Shown here in pieces: positions 7,715 through 29,666 of a stretch of DNA of 31,041 bases (position 1 is its first letter; every line of letters starts with the position of its first letter). Under the pieces are notes generated by a model, which made no database searches, was not told the DNA's origin, and saw only the letters and a list, made by a program, of their open reading frames with translations. This DNA is from a virus: IMG/VR virus record IMGVR_UViG_3300032046_000141, positions 1 through 31,041 of that record. One strand, given 5' to 3'. Both the position numbers and the translations under genes were made by a program.

Positions 7715-8323
7715 ATGAGTTCTAAGAAAGCAGAATCAATTGACGCCTGGCACAGTGATGTGCTAGCGTACTATCCTACTCATTCATACAAAGAAACGTA
7801 TGCGTACATTCGTGAACATTATAACGTTTCAGAACGTTCACTTAGAAAGTTTTTAGACGAATCAGGTATTCGTAGAAGTTTTGCAGATTCACAATTGCTT
7901 AAGTCAGTTCGAATTAAACAATGTCGCTATCCAAGAACGTGTGTAATATGCGTTCGAACATTTTCTGGTCGAACTCCCACTGTGCTTATGTGTGATGAGT
8001 GTGTAGGCGACAATACACCTGGTGCTAGCGTAGTTCGGCTAAGAAAATACACTCAATTTCGAAAAATTGCTGCGCGAATTAAATTGTTTGGGATCGATCA
8101 ATCGATGTTTGATGCAATGTTAGTGTCTCAAGATCATTGTTGTGGTTTGTGTAATGCATTTTTAAAACAACCATGTGTTGATCACTGTCATTCAACAGGT
8201 AAAGTTCGTGGTCTATTGTGTCACCGATGCAATTTAACGCTAGGTCATGTTGAAAAAGCTGGTAGTTATGATTGGCTAATGAAAGCACGTACGTGGCTAG
8301 AAAGTGTGCAGGATAAATCGTAA
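7715..8323 (+). CDS. HNH / endonuclease VII-like free-standing (homing-type) endonuclease
   Basis: This encodes 202 residues. The C-terminal half has the recombination endonuclease VII (T4 gp49) zinc/nuclease signature: C143-x2-C146, D156-H157-C-H159, then G-K-V-R-G-L-L-C169-H-R-C172-N173. The cysteines would bind zinc, and Asp156, His157 and Asn173 are the likely catalytic residues. A second possible zinc site is C76-x2-C79 with C93-x2-C96. Residues 20-55 look like a helix-turn-helix. The gene is more AT-rich than its structural neighbours and separates two baseplate genes. Its stop overlaps the next start (TAATG at 8321-8325). Such small HNH proteins in phages are commonly mobile homing endonucleases, and this is the best reading here. 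A resolvase role like gp49 is the alternative. Confidence 0.85.
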   Translation: MSSKKAESIDAWHSDVLAYYPTHSYKETYAYIREHYNVSERSLRKFLDESGIRRSFADSQLLKSVRIKQCRYPRTCVICVRTFSGRTPTVLMCDECVGDNTPGASVVRLRKYTQFRKIAARIKLFGIDQSMFDAMLVSQDHCCGLCNAFLKQPCVDHCHSTGKVRGLLCHRCNLTLGHVEKAGSYDWLMKARTWLESVQDKS

Positions 8324-11572: not shown

Positions 11573-12802
11573 GTGGTGTACGATGTAATCGTGCCACGAT
11601 TTTGCCTTGACATGTCCCTTCTTGGGACTGAGAAACACCTGCTTGTAGCAGACGGATCATTTCAGTGGTGTGACAATGTGCCAAAAGACACATGGCATCT
11701 CAATGGTCACGTCAAGGATCACAGTGATTGGTGCCTTGACACGGTGTTACGCTTATCAGGAAAGCCCATTGACCTATCGCCTCCCAAACGATTCGTGCAG
11801 GCGATGTCAATCATGTCTGGTTCGTTAGTAGACACGCCCATTCCGTGGCGCAGCGTCATGCCCGCGAGAGAACACCAGGGCTTCACCAAGCAATTGATTG
11901 GGCGTGTGGAAGAGGCCATGGCCGACAGTCCCTTGAATTACTACAAGGACGCGTGGGTGCCCAGTAACGGCGTCTTCAGGGCTTTGAGACTGGCGTGCGT
12001 CGACACAAAAGCCCGTCAAGAAATCCTTGACAAAGGTGAAGGAAACATCCCTGCGGTTCGTTCCTTCGAGCCTGATGAAAATAACTTTGCTCCTCGCGTG
12101 TGCTACAATCGGTTTAGAACATTGACTGGTCGTTTGACGGTCGAGAGCGGTCCTCAGATCCTCACTTTGAAGCGTGAACACAGGGGCATCATCAAGTCTT
12201 TCTATGGTGACAAGGGCACCATCGTAGCGCTAGACTTTGCTGCACTCGAGGCACGTGTTCTTTTGTATGAGTACGGTCGAAAGTGCGATGACGTTGACCT
12301 CTACGGAATGATCGCAAAGGAATTGGGCCAAGATCGCAAAGCAGTCAAAGGTGCCGTCATCAGCGAGCTCTACGGGAGCAGCAAATATGCGCTCGGAAAG
12401 GTGCTCGGCATCGAAGGCAAGGAACTGAACGAGTTCGTCGGCCGCATCAAGACGTACTTCAACACAGAAGACCTGCTTAAGCGCGTGAAGGCACAGTTCG
12501 TCTCAACGGGTTACGTCATCAATCGATACGGTCGTCCCATCAAGATCGATGAACCGCTTGACCACGTGATGATCAACTATTACTCACAGTCAACCGGCGC
12601 TGACGTTGCGCTTCTCGGGTTCAAGCAGGTCATCGACACGCTTGCTAAGCGTGCGGGGCGAGTGCGCCCAATCTATTTGTTACATGACGCCTTGATCCTT
12701 GACGCTTATAACGATGATCTCGGCGAAGTTGCAGGAATCAAATACGTCAAGGTCAAGGGTTACGTTCAAAAGTTCCCATTGCGCTACGAGAGACTGACTT
12801 GA
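11573..12802 (+). CDS. Family A DNA polymerase, polymerase domain only
   Basis: This encodes 409 residues, about the length of the isolated polymerase domain of Pol I, with no 3'-5' exonuclease motifs. Residues 185-188 are TGRL. Motif A is D221-F-A-A-L-E226-A-R. Motif B (O helix) reads D-R255-K-A-V-K259 to Y267-G268. Q339 lies in the NYYSQSTGAD segment. Motif C is L-H371-D372-A373. Aligning by eye to E. coli Pol I, Arg754, Lys758, Tyr766, Asp705, Glu710 and Asp882 are kept. The Phe762 position is Ile263, and the Glu of the HDE motif is Ala373. The start is uncertain: two adjacent GTG codons (11573, 11576) or an ATG at 11612. The exonuclease may be encoded elsewhere. It begins the replication cluster. 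Confidence 0.9.
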   Translation: MVYDVIVPRFCLDMSLLGTEKHLLVADGSFQWCDNVPKDTWHLNGHVKDHSDWCLDTVLRLSGKPIDLSPPKRFVQAMSIMSGSLVDTPIPWRSVMPAREHQGFTKQLIGRVEEAMADSPLNYYKDAWVPSNGVFRALRLACVDTKARQEILDKGEGNIPAVRSFEPDENNFAPRVCYNRFRTLTGRLTVESGPQILTLKREHRGIIKSFYGDKGTIVALDFAALEARVLLYEYGRKCDDVDLYGMIAKELGQDRKAVKGAVISELYGSSKYALGKVLGIEGKELNEFVGRIKTYFNTEDLLKRVKAQFVSTGYVINRYGRPIKIDEPLDHVMINYYSQSTGADVALLGFKQVIDTLAKRAGRVRPIYLLHDALILDAYNDDLGEVAGIKYVKVKGYVQKFPLRYERLT

Positions 12803-15826: not shown

Positions 15827-17089
15827 ATGGCAAAAGCAGCGAAAGAAGTTGCTGTTGCTCCGGTTGAAAAGTCCAAGACGAGCTCAGCTGGCGATAGTGA
15901 AGACTTCACCAGCGAGCTCATCAAGGCTATCAACAAGGAAGCAGGCATGCGGGTTGCGTACAACCTGGGTGAGACTGAAGCGCCGACGACTGTCAAGCGT
16001 TGGTTGAATACTGGATCAATCCAGTTGAACTATGCGATCAGAAATGCTTCCGCTGGAGGTTACCCAGAAGGCAGAGTTATTGAGATCTCAGGACCTCCAT
16101 CTATTGGCAAGTCACACCTTGCATACCATGCCGCGGCAGTCACCCAATCGCTGGGAGGCATTGTAGTCTATATTGACACAGAAAATGCGACACCGACCGA
16201 CAAGCTCAAGCAGATGGGCATTGACGTCAACAAGAACTTCATTTACATCGATGAACACTGCACTGAAAGTGTTTTCAGCTGGATCGAAAAAACGATCCTC
16301 TTGGCGAAAGCAAAGATCGACAAAAAGAGAAACGTGCCCATCCTCGTCGTTTGGGATTCAGTAGCTGCAACGTCTCCCAAGGCTGAACTCGAGGGCGACT
16401 ACGAAGACAGCACGATAGGTCTCCAGGCACGCCAGATCAGTAAGGGTATGCGAAAGATCACGGGCGTCATCGGCCAGAATAACGTCACACTGCTATGCCT
16501 TAATCAGCTGAGGACTGCGATCGGCGTAACATACGGCGACCCCGACATCACACCCGGTGGAAAAGCGATTCCATATCACGCCACGATTCGGATCAAACTT
16601 ACGTCCGGAACGCAAGTCAAGGACTCGAAGGGAAATGTCATCGGCATTCATGTCATCATGACGATCAAAAAGAACAAGGTTGCCCCTCCGTTCAGAAAAT
16701 ACGAGTTCGACATCATCTTTGGTCGGGGCATCGTTGAACATGAGTACGTCTTTGACGAGCTCAGGTCTTGGTGTGCTGACAACAAGGTGACGACCGACTA
16801 CACCGACTCAAAGGGAAATGTCTCTAAGGTTGACATCAAGATCTCTGGACAGTCTGCCTGGCGTGATCTTACGATCACAGACGCAAAGACTGGCGAAGTT
16901 CTGATCGAAAAGAAGTTCAATAAGAGCAAGTTCGATGAGATCATGGCTGATCCGATTTACAAGCCGTTCATCGACAAGATCATCGATGATGCGTACACGT
17001 TGAGAAGCGACTCGAAGGCATTGACCTATGTAGGTGATGGTGAGTCACCTGAGACAGATGAAGAGGAAGAGACTGTCGATGCAGCTTAA
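15827..17089 (+). CDS. recA: RecA/UvsX-type recombinase
   Basis: This encodes 420 residues. The Walker A motif is G89-P-P-S-I-G-K95-S96. The segment ILVVWDSVAA provides the Walker B Asp, and NQLRTAIGVTYGDP followed by TPGGKAIPYHATIRIKL matches the loop-2 and following strand of RecA. The N-terminus has a Lys/Ala-rich leader of about 25 residues before the oligomerisation helix. The C-terminal third is longer than in typical phage UvsX and ends acidic (SPETDEEEETVDAA). The ATG is preceded by GAAGGAG. The protein would form filaments on single-stranded DNA and carry out strand exchange, working with the adjacent SSB. The signatures look closer to RecA than to T4 UvsX, but both names describe the role. 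Confidence 0.92.
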   Translation: MAKAAKEVAVAPVEKSKTSSAGDSEDFTSELIKAINKEAGMRVAYNLGETEAPTTVKRWLNTGSIQLNYAIRNASAGGYPEGRVIEISGPPSIGKSHLAYHAAAVTQSLGGIVVYIDTENATPTDKLKQMGIDVNKNFIYIDEHCTESVFSWIEKTILLAKAKIDKKRNVPILVVWDSVAATSPKAELEGDYEDSTIGLQARQISKGMRKITGVIGQNNVTLLCLNQLRTAIGVTYGDPDITPGGKAIPYHATIRIKLTSGTQVKDSKGNVIGIHVIMTIKKNKVAPPFRKYEFDIIFGRGIVEHEYVFDELRSWCADNKVTTDYTDSKGNVSKVDIKISGQSAWRDLTITDAKTGEVLIEKKFNKSKFDEIMADPIYKPFIDKIIDDAYTLRSDSKALTYVGDGESPETDEEEETVDAA

Positions 17090-17519
17090 CATCGTAGTAA
17101 GAGTCAAGAATACAAGCGGGAATGAACTTCCCATGTATCAGACCGCCGGTGCTGCGGGTTGTGACATTCGCTCTGCAGAGGAGGACGTTATTCTACCGGG
17201 AGAGAAGAAGATCTTCATGACCGGTCTTTCATTTGAGATCCCGAGTGGATTTGAGTGTCAGATCCGTCCCAGGTCGAGTCTGGCGCGAAATCACGGCGTT
17301 ATTGTCTTCAATTCACCGTCAACGATTGACAGTGACTTTCGCGGGGAGCTCGGAATTCTGTTGGTGAACACAAGCAACAAGAATTTCAAAGTCGACGTGG
17401 GCGATCGAATCGCTCAGCTTGTCTTCGCTCCCGTGACACGTGCAGCATTCGAGACCGTCACAGAACTGTCCGAGACAATTCGCGGGCAGGGTGGTTGGGG
17501 CTCAACTGGGAGGCAATGA
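17079..17519 (+). CDS. dut: Trimeric dUTPase
   Basis: This encodes 146 residues, the normal size for a trimeric dUTPase, with all five motifs in order: A-A-G-C-D-I-R-S-A (25-33), P-R-S-S-L-A (64-69), G-V-I-V-F-N to T-I-D84-S-D-F-R-G-E (73-90), G-D-R-I-A-Q-L-V-F (108-116) and R-G-Q-G-G-W-G-S-T-G (135-144). Asp84 is the expected catalytic residue. Motif 3 has Phe where Tyr usually stacks under the uracil, and motif 5 has Trp in place of Phe. The enzyme converts dUTP to dUMP, keeping uracil out of DNA and supplying ThyX. The start at 17079 lies inside the last codons of the recombinase gene (11-base overlap), implying translational coupling. Confidence 0.95.
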   Translation: MQLNIVVRVKNTSGNELPMYQTAGAAGCDIRSAEEDVILPGEKKIFMTGLSFEIPSGFECQIRPRSSLARNHGVIVFNSPSTIDSDFRGELGILLVNTSNKNFKVDVGDRIAQLVFAPVTRAAFETVTELSETIRGQGGWGSTGRQ

Positions 17520-18938: not shown

Positions 18939-19832
18939 ATGTACGTAAAGCAACTGACGGTTAAACTTTCATTGTATAAGTGTGATCAATGTGAAAAAGA
19001 ATTTAAACGTTATGTGAAAGATGCTGGTGACATTCATCTTTGTTCAACAAACTGTGTTTCGAATGCTGCTAAAAGGGGCGGCGTAATTTGGTTAAAGACG
19101 TCTAAAACGTGTATGGAACGACACGGTGTTGAAACACCTTTTGCGTCATCAGTTGTAATGGACAAACATAGACAAACATGTCTTGAGCGTTATGGTGTTG
19201 AAAACGTGATGCAAATTCTCAACGTTCAATTGAAAGCCAAACAAACGTGTCTTGAGCGTTATGGTGTTGAAAACGTACTGGCATCCGATGCAGTGCGTCA
19301 AAAGATAAAGAATGTCATGTTTGAACGTTATGGCATCAATTATCCTCAGCAGTTACTTGAAATTCGTGAACGTACAAAGAAAACGAACGTTAAGCGTTAC
19401 GGTGTTGAAAATACGCTGCAACTTCCTGTCACACGTGAGCGATGTAATACGCCTGAAACTCACGCTAAACGACATCAAACAATGAAATGTAACGGTACAT
19501 ATGCAAAATCAAAACCTGAAGATCGTATGTACGAACTGTTGTGTAAATTGTTTGGTTTTGCAAATGTTGAACGTCAGGTGACTATTCATAAATGGCCCAT
19601 TGATTTCTACGTTAAAAGTATCGACGTATACGTTCAGCTTGACGGTGTTTATTGGCATGGTCTTGATCGACCAATTGAAGTGATTGCTGAACATAAAACG
19701 AACCGAGATGTGCAAATTCATAAAAAATGGAGCACAGATCGTGAACAAGATCAATGGTTTAGCACACAAGGTTTGAAACTTGTGAGGATTACTGACGTAC
19801 AGTTATGTAACCTGGTGAATGCATATGAATAA
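18939..19832 (+). CDS. Free-standing endonuclease with five 23-residue repeats and Vsr-like nuclease domain
   Basis: This encodes 297 residues. The N-terminal part has a C15-x2-C18 and C35-x3-C39 putative zinc module. Residues 57-171 are five tandem 23-residue repeats of the form T-C-L-E-R-Y-G-V-E-N-V plus a 12-residue linker, a module I associate with DNA recognition in phage homing endonucleases. The C-terminal domain looks like a PD-(D/E)xK or Vsr/EDxHD-type nuclease: an early Glu in S-K-P-E-D-R-M-Y, W-P-I-D-F-Y-V, then V-Q-L-D-G-V-Y-W-H-G, ending L-K-L-V-R-I-T-D. The gene is AT-rich compared with its neighbours and abuts the 5'-3' exonuclease gene (8-base overlap), a favoured kind of target for such elements. 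It is most likely a homing endonuclease. Confidence 0.82.
   Translation: MYVKQLTVKLSLYKCDQCEKEFKRYVKDAGDIHLCSTNCVSNAAKRGGVIWLKTSKTCMERHGVETPFASSVVMDKHRQTCLERYGVENVMQILNVQLKAKQTCLERYGVENVLASDAVRQKIKNVMFERYGINYPQQLLEIRERTKKTNVKRYGVENTLQLPVTRERCNTPETHAKRHQTMKCNGTYAKSKPEDRMYELLCKLFGFANVERQVTIHKWPIDFYVKSIDVYVQLDGVYWHGLDRPIEVIAEHKTNRDVQIHKKWSTDREQDQWFSTQGLKLVRITDVQLCNLVNAYE
19172..19276 (+). repeat. Near-identical 36-base direct repeats inside the endonuclease gene
   Basis: The blocks at 19172-19207 and 19241-19276 differ at one base and are spaced by 69 bases (23 codons). They encode repeats 2 and 3 of the protein. Their near identity, while repeats 1, 4 and 5 are diverged, suggests a recent unequal exchange or gene conversion. 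Confidence 0.9.
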
Positions 19833-22312: not shown

Positions 22313-24799
22313 ATGAGGTCATACACATACGATGAGGCGCGCAGCGCCTCACTAACGTATTTTGAGGGAGATGAACTTGCAGCTGAGGTGTTCGTCGGAA
22401 AGTACGCTTTGCAGGATCTCAAGGGCACGCTCTATGAAGCAACCCCTGCTGATACGCATAGACGTGAAGCTAGAGAGTTTGCACGAATCGAGCGGTCATA
22501 CCCAAACCCGCTAGACGAAGAAACGATCTACGACTACCTTGCAGATTGGCGAATTGTCCCGCAGGGCGGACCGATGTCGGCGATCGGCAATAAGTTTCAG
22601 GTGCAGTCACTGAGCAACTGCTTCGTGATTCAATCACCGTACGATTCGTACGGCGGCATCATGAAGACTGATCAGGAAGAAGTTCAGATCATGAAGCGTC
22701 GTGGAGGCGTCGGATTTGACGTCTCTACGATCAGGCCTCGTGGTCTTCCTGCAGCAAATGCCGCGAGGACGACAGACGGCATCGCCGTCTTCATGGAGCG
22801 CTATTCGAACACGTGCCGTGAGGTGGCGCAAGGTGGACGCCGCGGCGCACTGATGCTGACGATCAGCGTTCATCATCCTGAGGTCTTGACGTTTGCCAAC
22901 ATCAAGCGTGACAAAAAGAAGGTCACCGGTGCGAACGTGTCTGTTCGTATGTCGAACGAGTTCATGCTTGCTGTCGCAGCAGGCAAAAAGTACCAGCAGC
23001 GCTTTCCCGTCGACGCTAAACCCGGTGAGTACCTCATCGAACAGTGGGTCGATGCACGTGAAGTCTGGGACAACATCGTACTCGCGATGCGTGATTGCAG
23101 TGAACCGGGAATGTTGTTCTGGGACACCGTCACGAGAATGGGTCCCGCAGATGCGTACTTCAAGCAAGGCTACGGTTCAATCAGTACGAATCCTTGTGGC
23201 GAGATCACGTTGTCTGCATATGACAGTTGCCGACTTCTGTATATGAACCTGTGGAAGTTCGTGTTGAACCCTTTCACTTCTAAGGCAAAGTTTGACTTCA
23301 CGGCGTTTGACAAGGCGGTCATCGTAGCACAACGCTTGATGGATGACTTGATTGATCTCGAGCTCGAGGCAATCGATATCATCGTAGCGAAGATCAATGC
23401 AGACCCAGAGCCTCATGACGTCAAGCGTGTTGAACTTGAGCTGTGGGAAAAGATCAAAGCTGCGGCGATCAATGGTCGACGTACCGGGCTGGGAATCACA
23501 GCCTTGGGCGATGCCATGGCGGGTTGCAACCTGAAATATGGCAGCGATGAATCGATCGTGTTCACTGATCGAGTCTATCGCCAGCTAGCGCTGTCTTCGT
23601 ATCGGTCGTCAATTGCCATGGCGAAAGAACGTGGCTCATTTCCGATCTTCTCACATGAAGTTGAAAAGGATCATCCGTTCATTGAACGCATTCTGAACGA
23701 AGATCCCGACCTGCGTCGTGATTACAACCTCTACGGCCGCCGAAATATTGCAAACACGACAACCGCGCCAGTCGGCAGCGGTTCATTGATCGTGCGGACT
23801 ACGTCAGGGTGTGAGCCCGTTCTATTCTTGATGAGCAGGCGCAAGCGTAAGATCACATCTGCAGACAAGCAGGCTCGAGTTGACGAGACTGATGCGATGG
23901 GCGATCAATGGCAATACTACGACCTCGTTCACCCAGGCTTGAAGGTCTGGATGGACGTGACAGGTGAGACTGACATCACAAAATCGCCCTATCACGGCGC
24001 GACAGTCGAGGAGATTGACTGCCTCAAGAAAGTCGACATCCAGGCTGCAGCGCAGAAGTGGATCTGTCACAGCATCAGCAACACCACGAATATGGTGAAG
24101 GACGTCCTTCCTGAGACAGTTGAGGCACTGTGTTGGAGGGCTTGGGAAACAGCATGCAAAGGTGTCACCATCTATCGCGTCGGAAGCAGAGACGCAGTCA
24201 TCGTCAATGAAGAGGCATCGACGCCTGACGGTCAGCCGCTGTTCGTCACAGAAACGCATGCGCCGAAGCGTCCCAAGGAGCTTGAATGTGACGTTCACCG
24301 CGTAACTGTCAAGGGCGAACTGTATTTGGTCCTTGTCGGTCTTCTGAATGGTCGCCCGTACGAAGTCTTTGCCGGATTGAACGAACAGATCGAGGTTCCG
24401 AAGCGAGCAAAGAAAGCGATCCTCATCAAGAACGGAAAGAAGGACGGCGTCGCAACGTACAACCTCCGCATCCCGTTGGGAGATGACGACTTCATCACCT
24501 TGAAGGACGTCGTTTCGCTGTTCGACAACACGTTGTATGGCACCGTCACACGGATGATCTCGCTTGGATTGCGCCACGGAGTCCCGCTCCAGTACCTCGT
24601 CGAACAGCTACGCAAGGACAAGAACAGTGACGTCACGTCATTCAGCGCTTGTATTGCTCGAGTATTGAGTAAAGGCTACATCACTGATGGCACAGCTTCA
24701 ACTCTTGAAAAGACGTGCCCATCTTGTGGAAGCACCAACATCGCATATCAGCAAGGTTGTCCGACATGCATGTCCTGCGGAAACAGCAAGTGCGGGTGA
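22313..24799 (+). CDS. nrdJ: Class II (adenosylcobalamin-dependent) ribonucleotide reductase
   Basis: This encodes 828 residues. Redox cysteines C103 (L-S-N-C-F-V) and C306 (D-S-C-R-L), the thiyl Cys C295 and Glu297 in N-P-C-G-E, and the phosphate-binding A-P-V-G-S-G-S-L-I segment (485-493) make the reductase call firm. The C-terminal T-C802-P-S-C805 and C816-x2-C819-x2-C822 to C827 tail is the reductant-exchange or zinc module typical of NrdJ, and the S-N-T-T-N-M and A-C-K-G-V-T-I-Y-R-V-G-S-R segments also fit class II. There is no small radical subunit nearby. The enzyme reduces ribonucleotides to deoxyribonucleotides with or without oxygen but needs host or imported cobalamin. GGAGAG precedes the ATG. 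An 80-base gap separates it from the helicase. Confidence 0.93.
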   Translation: MRSYTYDEARSASLTYFEGDELAAEVFVGKYALQDLKGTLYEATPADTHRREAREFARIERSYPNPLDEETIYDYLADWRIVPQGGPMSAIGNKFQVQSLSNCFVIQSPYDSYGGIMKTDQEEVQIMKRRGGVGFDVSTIRPRGLPAANAARTTDGIAVFMERYSNTCREVAQGGRRGALMLTISVHHPEVLTFANIKRDKKKVTGANVSVRMSNEFMLAVAAGKKYQQRFPVDAKPGEYLIEQWVDAREVWDNIVLAMRDCSEPGMLFWDTVTRMGPADAYFKQGYGSISTNPCGEITLSAYDSCRLLYMNLWKFVLNPFTSKAKFDFTAFDKAVIVAQRLMDDLIDLELEAIDIIVAKINADPEPHDVKRVELELWEKIKAAAINGRRTGLGITALGDAMAGCNLKYGSDESIVFTDRVYRQLALSSYRSSIAMAKERGSFPIFSHEVEKDHPFIERILNEDPDLRRDYNLYGRRNIANTTTAPVGSGSLIVRTTSGCEPVLFLMSRRKRKITSADKQARVDETDAMGDQWQYYDLVHPGLKVWMDVTGETDITKSPYHGATVEEIDCLKKVDIQAAAQKWICHSISNTTNMVKDVLPETVEALCWRAWETACKGVTIYRVGSRDAVIVNEEASTPDGQPLFVTETHAPKRPKELECDVHRVTVKGELYLVLVGLLNGRPYEVFAGLNEQIEVPKRAKKAILIKNGKKDGVATYNLRIPLGDDDFITLKDVVSLFDNTLYGTVTRMISLGLRHGVPLQYLVEQLRKDKNSDVTSFSACIARVLSKGYITDGTASTLEKTCPSCGSTNIAYQQGCPTCMSCGNSKCG

Positions 24800-26542: not shown

Positions 26543-26869
26543 ATGGACCCACACTACCTCGAGTGTCAGTGCAGTGATTTCAATCATCTTGTACGATTCA
26601 ATCTGTCTGAACTAGATGGTGATGTGTACGTTGACGTACGCTTGAATCACTACGAACGTTGGTACAAGCGAATCTGGATCGCAGTCAAGTACATCTTCAA
26701 GAAGCCACATGCGTATGGTCATTATGACTGTACGCTTTTGCGCGTTGAAGACTATCCTGCGCTTCACGATCTGTTGGACAGAAGCAAGCTGCTTCTGAAG
26801 CAGGCTGATGATAAAAGAGTGGCCGAGTGGGCCCTCAAGAAGTCCCAAGATAATTCTAGCTGTGCCTAA
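26543..26869 (+). CDS. Conserved phage protein of unknown function
   Basis: This encodes 108 residues. It begins with E-C-Q-C-S-D-F-N-H-L-V-R-F and has beta strands (DVYVDVRLNHY) and a basic-aromatic helix (WYKRIWIAVKYIFKK), then YGHYDCTLL. I recall this pattern from unnamed proteins of other large phages, but no function is known to me. The two cysteines near the start plus His could bind a metal. The start may be the ATG at 26543 or a GTG two codons upstream. It ends 11 bases before the deacetylase gene. Confidence 0.72.
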   Translation: MDPHYLECQCSDFNHLVRFNLSELDGDVYVDVRLNHYERWYKRIWIAVKYIFKKPHAYGHYDCTLLRVEDYPALHDLLDRSKLLLKQADDKRVAEWALKKSQDNSSCA

Positions 26870-26879
26870 AAGGAAACCA

Positions 26880-27758
26880 ATGACAACTGCTATTCCCGTT
26901 TTCTACAGTCCCAAGATGGTCGCACTCTCGAAGTGCATGTCGCCGAGCGCAGCTAAACCTGCAAAAGTCGTTGACTCGTGGCAGAAGCAATTTCAGATTG
27001 AACTCCTCGAGCCTACGCCTGTCACTGTCGATGAATTCTGCCGCGCTCATGATCGTGAGTACGTAGAAGACGTCCTTGCGTGCCGCATTGAGAACGGGTT
27101 TCACAATCGTGAAGCAGATGTGGCACTCGCATTGCCGTACACCACGGGAGCGATGCTCTCTGCGGCACGTCATGCGATCTGGAGCGACAGTGTAGCAGTT
27201 GCACCGTGCTCAGGATTTCACCATGCTGGGTACGAGAGAGCTGAAGGATTCTGCACGTTCAATGGTCTGATGGTCACTGCCTTAGCATTGAAGGAGTCTG
27301 GTGTCCAGCGTGTTGGAATCCTTGACCTCGATATGCACTATGGGAATGGAACAGACGAGATCATTCGTAAGTTGGGCCTTCAGAATTTCATCAGACACTT
27401 TACGGGCGGCGCGACATACGATAGTAGCAGGCACCTTGCGTCGCAAGAACAAGCAAAGCAAGTCGCTGACTTCTTTCACAAGCTCCCAGAGATTGTTGAA
27501 TGGATGACTGATTGCGACGTCGTGCTGTATCAGGCGGGTGCAGACCCGCACATCAACGATCCGTACGGCGGATGGTTGTCAACTCCGGAACTACGTCATC
27601 GAGATGAAGTCGTGTTTGACATCTTGCACGCATCAGGTACTCCAGTCGCCTGGAATCTTGCGGGAGGCTACCAGACTGAACCCGATGGATCGATCCCGAA
27701 GGTCCTTGAGATCCACGATAACACAATGCGTGAGTGCGTTCGAGTCTACGGAGGTTGA
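26880..27758 (+). CDS. Histone deacetylase / acetylpolyamine amidohydrolase family protein
   Basis: This encodes 292 residues, about the size of the catalytic core of this zinc-hydrolase family. Visible catalytic set: the His pair H114-H115 in G-F-H-H-A-G-Y-E; D149-L-D151-M-H153-Y-G-N-G, supplying two zinc ligands (D151, H153); D222 in Q-A-G-A-D-P-H as the third ligand; and the transition-state Tyr264 in A-G-G-Y. These enzymes remove acetyl groups from lysine side chains, polyamines or related acyl amides; the substrate here is unknown. The ATG at 26880 follows AAAAGGAAACC and begins directly with the fold (IPVFYSPKM). An upstream in-frame start would overlap the preceding gene. ThyX follows by 1 base. 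Family is certain, biological role is not. Confidence 0.9.
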   Translation: MTTAIPVFYSPKMVALSKCMSPSAAKPAKVVDSWQKQFQIELLEPTPVTVDEFCRAHDREYVEDVLACRIENGFHNREADVALALPYTTGAMLSAARHAIWSDSVAVAPCSGFHHAGYERAEGFCTFNGLMVTALALKESGVQRVGILDLDMHYGNGTDEIIRKLGLQNFIRHFTGGATYDSSRHLASQEQAKQVADFFHKLPEIVEWMTDCDVVLYQAGADPHINDPYGGWLSTPELRHRDEVVFDILHASGTPVAWNLAGGYQTEPDGSIPKVLEIHDNTMRECVRVYGG

Positions 27759-27759
27759 C

Positions 27760-28674
27760 ATGGGATACGGAGCAAAGATTCTGAAGGACAGCCTGAGCCC
27801 TGATGGCGTGCGTTTGACGACGATGGAGGTCACGTTTCCTCGCATCGTGTTGGCTGAGTTCAACACACATCGAATGTTCTCGAGAAACAGCGCTTCAAGT
27901 CGAGCGATCCCTGTCGAGAAGATGCTCAAGAAAGTTGATGAAGATCCGTTCATCCCAATCTACTGGGGCAAGAATCAAAAGGGCATGCAGGCCGAACAGG
28001 AGCTCAGTGATGAGGATCAGGAATATGCTCGTGATTGCTGGCTCAGGGGTCGAGATTATGCCGTTGACACTGCCAAGAGAATGCTCGACATGGGCATTCA
28101 CAAGCAGATCACAAATCGCATGCTCGAACCATGGCTCTGGCAAACAGTCATTGTGACAGCGACTGAGTGGGACAACTTTTGGGGACTGCGTTGTCACAAG
28201 GACGCTCAACCCGAGATTCGTGTCGTTGCTGAAATGATGGCTAGTGCATATGCGATGTCTGCACCTCTGAACTTGCAGTACGGTCAATGGCACCTACCAT
28301 TACTCCAGGACGATGAATTTGTTGATGAAGACATGGGATTTCCATGTGTATCATTCACAGCAAAGGATGCAGTCAAAGCATGCGTTGGCAGGTGTGCTCG
28401 GATCTCGTACCTGACACACGATGGAAAGCGCGATCCAAAGGCAGACATTGAGATGGCAGAACGTCTTGCTGCAGCAGGACATATGAGCCCATGGGAACAT
28501 GTTGCTCGACCGATGCACAAGGATGAGATCAAGACATACTCAACGCTCGATCCTCGTCACTATCCAGGCGATGGCGTCATTCTGAATGAAGTTCCATTCT
28601 TGGGCAATTTCCGAGGTTGGGTTCAGGCTCGTAAAGAACTTCCCAATGAAGACAACTTCCTGAAGACGAAGTGA
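27760..28674 (+). CDS. thyX: FAD-dependent thymidylate synthase, motif order permuted
   Basis: This encodes 304 residues. It carries the ThyX motif as H37-R38-x2-S41-x-N43-x2-S46-x-R48 (first Arg of RHR replaced by Thr), the L-R144-x4-A-Q-P-E-I-R block (143-154), and C-A-R-I-S-Y (212-217) followed by G-H-M-S-P-W-E-H (240-247). In standard ThyX the ARVSF and GHxSxxEH parts come first and the RHR motif after them; here that N-terminal part is at the C-terminal side. The enzyme makes dTMP from dUMP using folate and reduced flavin. The ATG is preceded by GGAGG, one base after the deacetylase stop. Upstream in-frame ATGs overlap the deacetylase and are rejected. Confidence 0.88.
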   Translation: MGYGAKILKDSLSPDGVRLTTMEVTFPRIVLAEFNTHRMFSRNSASSRAIPVEKMLKKVDEDPFIPIYWGKNQKGMQAEQELSDEDQEYARDCWLRGRDYAVDTAKRMLDMGIHKQITNRMLEPWLWQTVIVTATEWDNFWGLRCHKDAQPEIRVVAEMMASAYAMSAPLNLQYGQWHLPLLQDDEFVDEDMGFPCVSFTAKDAVKACVGRCARISYLTHDGKRDPKADIEMAERLAAAGHMSPWEHVARPMHKDEIKTYSTLDPRHYPGDGVILNEVPFLGNFRGWVQARKELPNEDNFLKTK

Positions 28675-29069: not shown

Positions 29070-29666
29070 ATGACCGCAAAGCTGGTAGTCTTCGAAGGGC
29101 CCGATAAGGTCGGAAAAGAAACTCAGTCGAAGCTCCTTCTGAGGAGTTTGAAAGACGCTTCCTACAACGTAGTTCGATGTGAAGTGCCGACGAATACGTG
29201 TCCACGTACGTACAAACTCATCTACAGCATGTTGAAGAGCGGATGGGCGAAACGGACGCCGAATCTGTTTCAGTTCATTCAGTTTCTCAACAAATGGCTG
29301 TTTCAGGTTTTGCATATGCCATCGTTGATGCGTAACAATGACGTCGTCATTCTTGATCGCTGGAGTTTGTCCGCAGTGATCTATGGTGGTGCTACTGGCG
29401 TCAACAGTGTGCTCAACATGTTCCTGTTCAACAGGCTCAAGAAGCCTGATATCACGATTGTTCTTGACGGACAGTCGTTTCGACGTTCAACAACAGAAGA
29501 CGACTCCTACGAAAAGGACAATGAACTTCAGGCTGCCGTCAAGGTAGCGTATCATCAGTGGGCGCTTGATCATTCAAACGATCACGTCCTAGCACAAAAC
29601 AATGCTTCGAAGCTTGAAGTGCACTATGACATTCTCATCGCGCTGAGAATGGCGGGTATCCCGTGA
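29070..29666 (+). CDS. tmk: Thymidylate kinase
   Basis: This encodes 198 residues. The N-terminus V-V-F-E-G10-P-D-K-V-G15-K16-E17-T-Q-S-K-L-L is the thymidylate-kinase P-loop, although the Ser/Thr that normally follows the lysine is Glu17. D96-R97-W98-S-L-S-A-V-I-Y-G matches the DR(Y/W)-S-AYG motif that holds dTMP, and D-I-T-I-V-L-D-G the following core strand. A lid-like segment (R-S-T-T-E-D-D-S-Y-E-K) follows. The enzyme phosphorylates dTMP from ThyX to dTDP. It follows the SNase gene by 31 bases and overlaps the methyltransferase gene by 4 (GTGA). Confidence 0.9.
   Translation: MTAKLVVFEGPDKVGKETQSKLLLRSLKDASYNVVRCEVPTNTCPRTYKLIYSMLKSGWAKRTPNLFQFIQFLNKWLFQVLHMPSLMRNNDVVILDRWSLSAVIYGGATGVNSVLNMFLFNRLKKPDITIVLDGQSFRRSTTEDDSYEKDNELQAAVKVAYHQWALDHSNDHVLAQNNASKLEVHYDILIALRMAGIP

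Follow-up and report, generated by a model that had tools for sequence, protein, structure and literature searches.

The analysed window is an entire virus record of 31,041 bases, in which a plus-strand gene encodes a relative of the flavin-dependent thymidylate synthase ThyX with its conserved motifs in a rearranged order. The gene, its parts and the neighbouring genes of the same pathway are as follows.

17034..17519, plus strand: dUTPase, which makes dUMP, of the same phage pathway (phrog_135, 1e-51)
22313..24799, plus strand: ribonucleotide reductase large subunit, of the same phage pathway (phrog_84, 2.6e-95)
27750..27754, plus strand: GGAGG ribosome-binding site, 5 nt upstream of the ATG
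27760..28674, plus strand: ThyX relative of rearranged order, 304 aa (Pfam Thy1, PHROG_85, doubled-profile alignment)
27760..27795, plus strand: residues 1-12, modelled as a new N-terminal strand that occupies the position of canonical strand 1
27820..28275, plus strand: residues 21-172, equivalent to canonical columns 60-209, core with the flavin/dUMP site (profile alignment)
27865..27903, plus strand: THRx7S motif, residues 36-48, canonical RHRx7SxR with Arg78 replaced by Thr36
28186..28221, plus strand: LRxxxxAQPEIR, residues 143-154, with R144 equivalent to Arg174
28381..28506, plus strand: residues 208-249, equivalent to canonical columns 17-58, the relocated block with RCARISY and GHMSPWEH (profile alignment)
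28606..28635, plus strand: NFRGWVQARK, residues 283-292, near-invariant C-terminal motif that may fill the flavin site
29070..29666, plus strand: thymidylate-kinase-like protein, the next pathway step (PF02223, 3e-13)

Judged by these matches, the ribonucleotide reductase, the dUTPase, the ThyX relative and the thymidylate-kinase-like gene represent a dTTP supply module. A single base separates the ATG of the ThyX-like gene from the stop of the upstream gene, a histone-deacetylase-like gene (PF00850, 2.1e-31; 26808-27758, plus strand) that ends just before the ThyX start. For this neighbour there is no convincing PHROG match and a BLAST match in only one of the 209 relative loci (L107); its product is possibly, as a guess, an acetyl-polyamine or modified-base amidohydrolase. 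Elsewhere in the window, endonuclease VII-like and homing-endonuclease-like genes (7715-8323, 18939-19832) lie amid the replication genes, the DNA polymerase match is confined to 11573-12802, and a comparison with 50,697 phage records turned up nothing closely related to the first 25 kb.

Family profiles recognise the protein in part. Pfam Thy1 aligns its positions 60-190 with residues 21-169 (E 1.4e-15; 58 bits against a curated cut-off of 24.8), while the NCBI equivalog TIGR02170 (thyX) scores 60 bits, below its cut-off of 87.9. The phage family PHROG_85, named "thymidylate synthase", matches residues 5-297 (E 5e-73), with only positions 412-702 of its 866-position profile involved and a name that is silent on motif order. 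Phage relatives do carry a thymidylate synthase annotation, in keeping with the belief voiced in the original prediction that phage proteins of similar order are annotated as ThyX. That prediction had also located the ThyX motifs at residues 37-48, 143-154 and 212-247, and in the 304-residue translation each lies exactly there: T36-H37-R38-x2-S41-x-N43-x2-S46-x-R48, L143-R144...A149-Q150-P151-E152-I153-R154, and finally C212-A-R-I-S-Y217 followed by G240-H241-M-S-P-W-E-H247.

The order of these pieces was examined with a canonical profile built from 28 diverse ThyX proteins of prokaryotes and phages. Its columns 60-209 align with residues 21-172 (49.9 bits) and its columns 17-58 with residues 208-249 (14.0 bits); when the profile is written twice in succession, one continuous alignment joins columns 60-278 to residues 21-249 at 62.6 bits. 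A gain of more than 5 bits for the doubled over the single profile is seen in 165 of 209 unique relatives, in none of 40 canonical ThyX proteins and in 2 of 209 shuffled sequences, and the best doubled-profile alignment crosses the junction in 189, 2 and 5 of these sets, respectively. When profile was compared with profile, the two pieces reached E values of 2e-14 and 9.7e-10 and the doubled template one of 2.2e-21, and the C-terminal segment alone matches canonical ThyX at 7.8e-12. The 28-sequence profile replaced an earlier, narrower one of 40 sequences, mostly of one class, with which the doubled gain exceeded 5 bits in 15 of 209 relatives, a weak result. With that earlier profile, both pieces were found in 167 of the 209 unique relatives and were swapped in all 167 (L038, L051 and L066, which run off contig ends, were dropped), whereas the 40 canonical proteins, the same 40 from which the profile had been built, each gave one colinear match. 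The 209 unique relatives were drawn from the best 80 of 186, of 188 and of at least 556 candidates, so the sample is biased towards near relatives.

The swapped order is thereby confirmed as real and not a product of chance. The idea that assembly had joined gene pieces, or that the motifs match by accident, can point to nothing except that identity to canonical ThyX is low, and has practically no probability left, since the identical order in all 167 relatives with both pieces, across viral contigs, isolates, MAGs and complete chromosomes, already refutes it.

Structure prediction bears on how the chain was rearranged. AlphaFold2 models of the window protein (64-row alignment; pLDDT 90.9, pTM 0.89) and of a Saccharibacteria member (55 bacterial rows; pLDDT 95.3, pTM 0.92) were obtained; of the alignments, A1 was made without L032, L068, L077, L082-L085 and near-copies, and A2 comprised 55 of the 76 listed bacterial rows. 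The top PDB match in Foldseek is T. maritima ThyX (7ndw_C, 1.6e-6). In VIA-align, ThyX and PolB entries reach Z scores of 8.8 to 11.6 with both models and everything else stays at or below 4.2, the aligned ranges extending to about residue 170 and leaving residues 200-304 outside. The Saccharibacteria model matches 6j61_B best (Z 11.6, rmsd 2.6, 140 aligned), and the window model matches 4p5a_A best (Z 11.5, rmsd 2.8, 163 aligned). The latter entry is PolB, a UMP/dUMP methylase of Streptomyces cacaoi (4p5a, 4p5b); its Z score is tied with that of ThyX and so shows no special kinship to PolB, and residues 200-304 lie outside the alignment. Against 1o25_D the window model gives Z 10.6, rmsd 2.9 and 155 aligned residues, so that the ThyX fold is found for residues 1-170 only.

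Each model has its residue 1 matched to T. maritima residue 7 or 8; the alignments comprise 148-156 residues and stop at 198-201. The modelled N-terminal strand would thus lie on canonical strand 1, and the skipped canonical residues, about 18-59, would be those of the C-terminal block. The original prediction that the usual N-terminal segment had moved to the C-terminus holds for the segment with CARISY and GHMSPWEH, here and throughout the relatives; its further reading as a circular permutation is improbable for the whole chain, because a new N-terminal strand over the place of canonical strand 1 fits better with a block transposition. The part that moved is probably no more than the block "helix 1 - helix 2 - GHxSPxEH". 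A true whole-chain permutation, in which strand 1 moved along with the block and the N-terminal strand was newly added, is doubtful, even though the doubled-profile alignment runs continuously across the junction, the model has a short strand at 197-199 ahead of RCARISY, and no sequence counterpart of canonical strand 1 is detectable in the N-terminal 20 residues. It is at odds with the pairing of residue 1 onward with canonical 7 or 8 onward in both models, with an aligned residue number so high that it has to take in the greater part of the first strand, and with the finding that residues 183-207 gave no alignment to canonical columns 1-16. The sequence alone cannot settle between transposition and full permutation.

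A conceivable duplication intermediate is seen in tandem ThyX-like proteins, whose two domains each match Thy1 within a chain of about 460-600 aa. They are widespread (L226, L306-L312 and further genomes). As a source of the rearranged gene they are not supported, the profile comparison with eight such proteins (a ninth, L228, had no usable ORF) being weak at E 0.0042 against 2e-14 for single canonical ThyX.

No description of a rearranged or permuted ThyX was found in the literature searched, which left most subscription journals outside and included the available portions of PMC7824862, PMC8265664, PMC5954106 and PMC9931769; in the available portion of PMC7824862, circular permutation refers to DNA methylases.

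Residues were mapped in T. maritima numbering across 210 rearranged and 28 canonical rows. Those shared by both orders, with the number of rearranged rows that keep them in brackets, are Ser30 as S216 (210), His53 as H241 (209), Glu58 as E246 (209), His79 as H37 (210), Arg80 as R38 (205), Ser88 as S46 (210), Arg90 as R48 (210), Arg147 as R120 (210) and Arg174 as R144 (210). The residues for dUMP and flavin, His53, Ser88, Arg90, Arg147 and Arg174, are accordingly retained in 209-210 of the 210 rows. The protein agrees with canonical ThyX (PF02511 Thy1; T. maritima TM0449) in the fold of residues 1-170, in the equivalents of His53, Ser88, Arg90, Arg147 and Arg174, and in the HRx7SxR spacing. It differs in that the block 17-58 stands behind the core, in the changes Arg78 to Thr, Tyr91 to Ala and Gln75 to Glu, in an extra C-terminal NFxGWxQxR that has no canonical counterpart, and in its score below the TIGR02170 cut-off. 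The RHRx7S motif appears as THRx7S with its spacing kept: its first Arg, Arg78, already read as Thr in the original prediction, is Thr36 here and Thr in 209 of 210 rows. The equivalent of Tyr91, the proposed general acid, is Ala in all 210 rows, and that of Gln75 is Glu in 208; among the canonical rows, Tyr91 is Tyr in 28 of 28 and Arg78 is Arg in 20, Lys in 7 and Thr in 1. The protein departs from three defining features of canonical ThyX, namely the motif order, the leading Arg of RHR and Tyr91, and it also misses the equivalog cut-off; it is therefore classed as a ThyX-like variant, not a plain member of ThyX.

Other positions are near-invariant within the rearranged family: Lys115, His178 and Pro180 in all 210 rows, and, within the NFxGWxQxR motif, Asn283 in 208 and Arg291 in 209. 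Arg42 is Arg in 198 rows and Lys in 12. The R-x-W-x3-R spacing of NFRGWVQAR resembles that of T. maritima RQWFRHR. The notion that this C-terminal motif is a second copy of the RHR helix was rejected, as the profile comparison gave no such match and the motif is a strand in the model.

Two kinds of thymidylate synthase are known, ThyA and ThyX, and Tyr91 and Arg78 are held to be central to ThyX chemistry. The most probable function of the rearranged protein, at a probability of roughly 0.8, is that of a flavin-dependent thymidylate synthase converting dUMP to dTMP. As in ThyX, dUMP would be methylated with the use of FAD, NADPH and methylenetetrahydrofolate. The relocated block would fold back into its canonical position, with the new N-terminal strand standing in for strand 1; the invariant Arg291 or Arg42 might hold the reduced flavin in place of Arg78, and the acid role of Tyr91 might fall to another invariant residue, with Lys115 and His178 as candidates. 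The phage gene is part of the dTTP module, and in several bacterial lineages the enzyme appears to be the only thymidylate synthase. What speaks against this function is the loss of both Arg78 and Tyr91, together with the score below the TIGR02170 cut-off; changing Tyr91 cripples T. maritima ThyX. In the available text of PMC11940539, Tyr91 and Ser88 are called strictly conserved in ThyX, mutation of Tyr91 is given as a 1000-fold loss, and Arg78 is placed at N1/O2 of the reduced flavin; a lowering of T. maritima ThyX by 100- to 1000-fold upon a Tyr91 change is given in the available parts of PMC11940539 and PMC8316439.

The absence of these two residues, held important in T. maritima ThyX, could also mean a catalytically dead or regulatory ThyX-like protein. 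Such a protein is very improbable, given that the core active-site residues are retained in 205-210 of 210 rows and that the gene appears to replace ThyA and ThyX across whole lineages.

This replacement was assessed in 50 carrier genomes, most of them MAGs, taken from the best 80 of 188 bacterial relatives, which are not independent of one another. ThyA was found in six and canonical-order or two-domain ThyX in four, and in 40 of the 50 the rearranged gene is the sole recognisable thymidylate synthase; in this count, G044, with a two-domain protein, stands as canonical, and G034 stands as a sole carrier though Pfam missed its copy. Two of the sole carriers, Saccharibacteria CP011211.1 and Svornostia abyssi CP088295.1, are titled as a complete genome and a chromosome, and cyanobacterial strains also belong to this group. 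ThyA yields dihydrofolate and so needs DHFR, which ThyX does not, and scarcity of DHFR in carriers without ThyA is therefore a prediction of ThyX chemistry. DHFR of the PF00186 type is present in 8 of the 50 genomes, namely in six of six carriers with ThyA and in two of 44 without it, leaving 42 of those 44 devoid of this type (Fisher 1.8e-6, uncorrected for kinship). Of the 40 sole carriers, 14 have a thymidine kinase above the cut-off, so that salvage may operate there, which counts against the assigned function; the other 26 have none above it, so salvage cannot account for all sole carriers.

Counts were also made within single taxa. Among 148 genomes of the phylum of G043, 54 have the rearranged kind, 52 the canonical kind (five as split matches) and 18 ThyA, with 9 of the 115 Thy1 genomes, partial or weak, placed in neither kind; none of the 148 has two kinds, where the expected overlaps of the rearranged kind are 19.0 and 6.6. 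In the order of G046, 26 of 38 genomes carry the rearranged gene, 24 of them as sole synthase, one together with ThyA and one together with canonical ThyX. The rearranged kind is rare among genomes of the phylum of G001 (2/116). At several loci canonical ORFs were not found. Judged by these sequence searches, many bacteria seem to have no thymidylate synthase other than the rearranged one. As a separate observation, the canonical ThyX matches of G069, G123 and G171 are split at profile column ~84, just after RHR, with about 500-700 nt between the pieces, possibly by inteins or inserts at the active-site loop.

The neighbourhoods of the relatives add further context. In a complete Saccharibacteria genome, a dCTP deaminase gene lies within a few bases 3' of the rearranged gene and is followed by thymidylate kinase; among the seven Saccharibacteria loci, dCTP deaminase is present in six (the seventh contig is 3.5 kb long) and thymidylate kinase in three. 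In the viral loci, a dNMP or dTMP kinase occurs in at least 21 of 131 by BLAST, which is a lower bound. In Eremiobacterota, copy L103 is flanked by ftsZ on one side and by type II secretion genes on the other. A prophage-only origin of the bacterial copies was rejected, as no phage structural gene was among 20 neighbour ORFs at five loci (20 of the 97 ORFs listed for 13 loci); these neighbours include ftsA, ftsZ, type II secretion, SufBD, Ham1, ribosomal L1, molybdopterin oxidase, dCTP deaminase and thymidylate kinase. Other bacterial copies, on short contigs, may be phage-borne. Locus L114 has acetyl-CoA-synthetase-like and NADH-dehydrogenase-like ORFs, recognised by eye only.

These surroundings also weigh on a different product of the same scaffold, a modified pyrimidine such as 5-hydroxymethyl-dUMP for phage DNA or, as in PolB, 5-methyl-UMP. 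Arg78 and Tyr91 are gone, the window model finds its best structural match in PolB, a UMP/dUMP methylase, albeit tied with ThyX, and phages often modify their DNA, an MT-A70 methyltransferase gene lying near the ThyX relative in the window. Such a product is nevertheless quite unlikely, for 40 of the 50 carrier genomes have no other recognisable dTMP-making synthase, the Saccharibacteria gene adjoins dCTP deaminase and thymidylate kinase, and the window itself has a dUTPase and a thymidylate-kinase-like gene.

The gene is widely distributed. In tblastn the protein was found in 1023 of 50,697 phage records, with at least 80% of its length covered in 982; the phage carriers include ICP1, N4-like phages and V5-like coliphages, and a canonical ThyX query of 110 residues matches 1216 records. 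Among bacterial species genomes, 188 relatives were confirmed, of which the best 80 were taken, and the rearranged gene is hence not a phage oddity, being present in bacterial genomes as well. In a core tree of 87 of the 210 rearranged rows and 28 canonical rows (without L032, L068 and L077; a quick tree with some long branches), one branch with SH-aLRT 99 splits the two orders, viral and bacterial rows are intermixed within the rearranged part, and a clade of 11 rows, nine of them Eremiobacterota, has a support of 99. Overall, the protein is a real and widespread rearranged ThyX relative whose active site has been rewired, and dTMP is its most likely product.

A fuller account, in which all parts must hold together, is favoured slightly. 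It would make the family a second class of flavin-dependent thymidylate synthase, of ancient separation, whose chain was rearranged once, whose rebuilt flavin site relies on the C-terminal NFxGWxQxR motif and on Lys115 or His178 instead of Arg78 and Tyr91, and whose methylene transfer takes a somewhat different route. It would serve as the only synthase of whole lineages (many Eremiobacterota, Pseudanabaena, and some Saccharibacteria and Actinomycetota), and many phages would carry its gene.

A widespread natural enzyme that has its chain reordered and is devoid of Tyr91 and Arg78 offers a ready test of the proposed flavin-carbinolamine mechanism, and a comparison of the two orders could illuminate how an intersubunit active site survives the relocation of a catalytic block. 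There is a practical side as well: as the window protein falls below the NCBI thyX cut-off, genomes relying on such enzymes may seem to have no proper thymidylate synthase, which constitutes an annotation gap for rearranged ThyX-like enzymes.

Individual relatives show further variation in gene structure. In L077 (2800-3759), an intein C-terminal-like part precedes the rearranged ThyX and ends immediately ahead of the THR motif. In Escherichia phage vB_Eco_Alma (L325:2483-3467), the rearranged gene is split into two adjacent ORFs, intact relatives of which exist, and L032 (2989-4458) encodes a 490-aa fusion of the rearranged ThyX with a C-terminal cysteine-rich domain.
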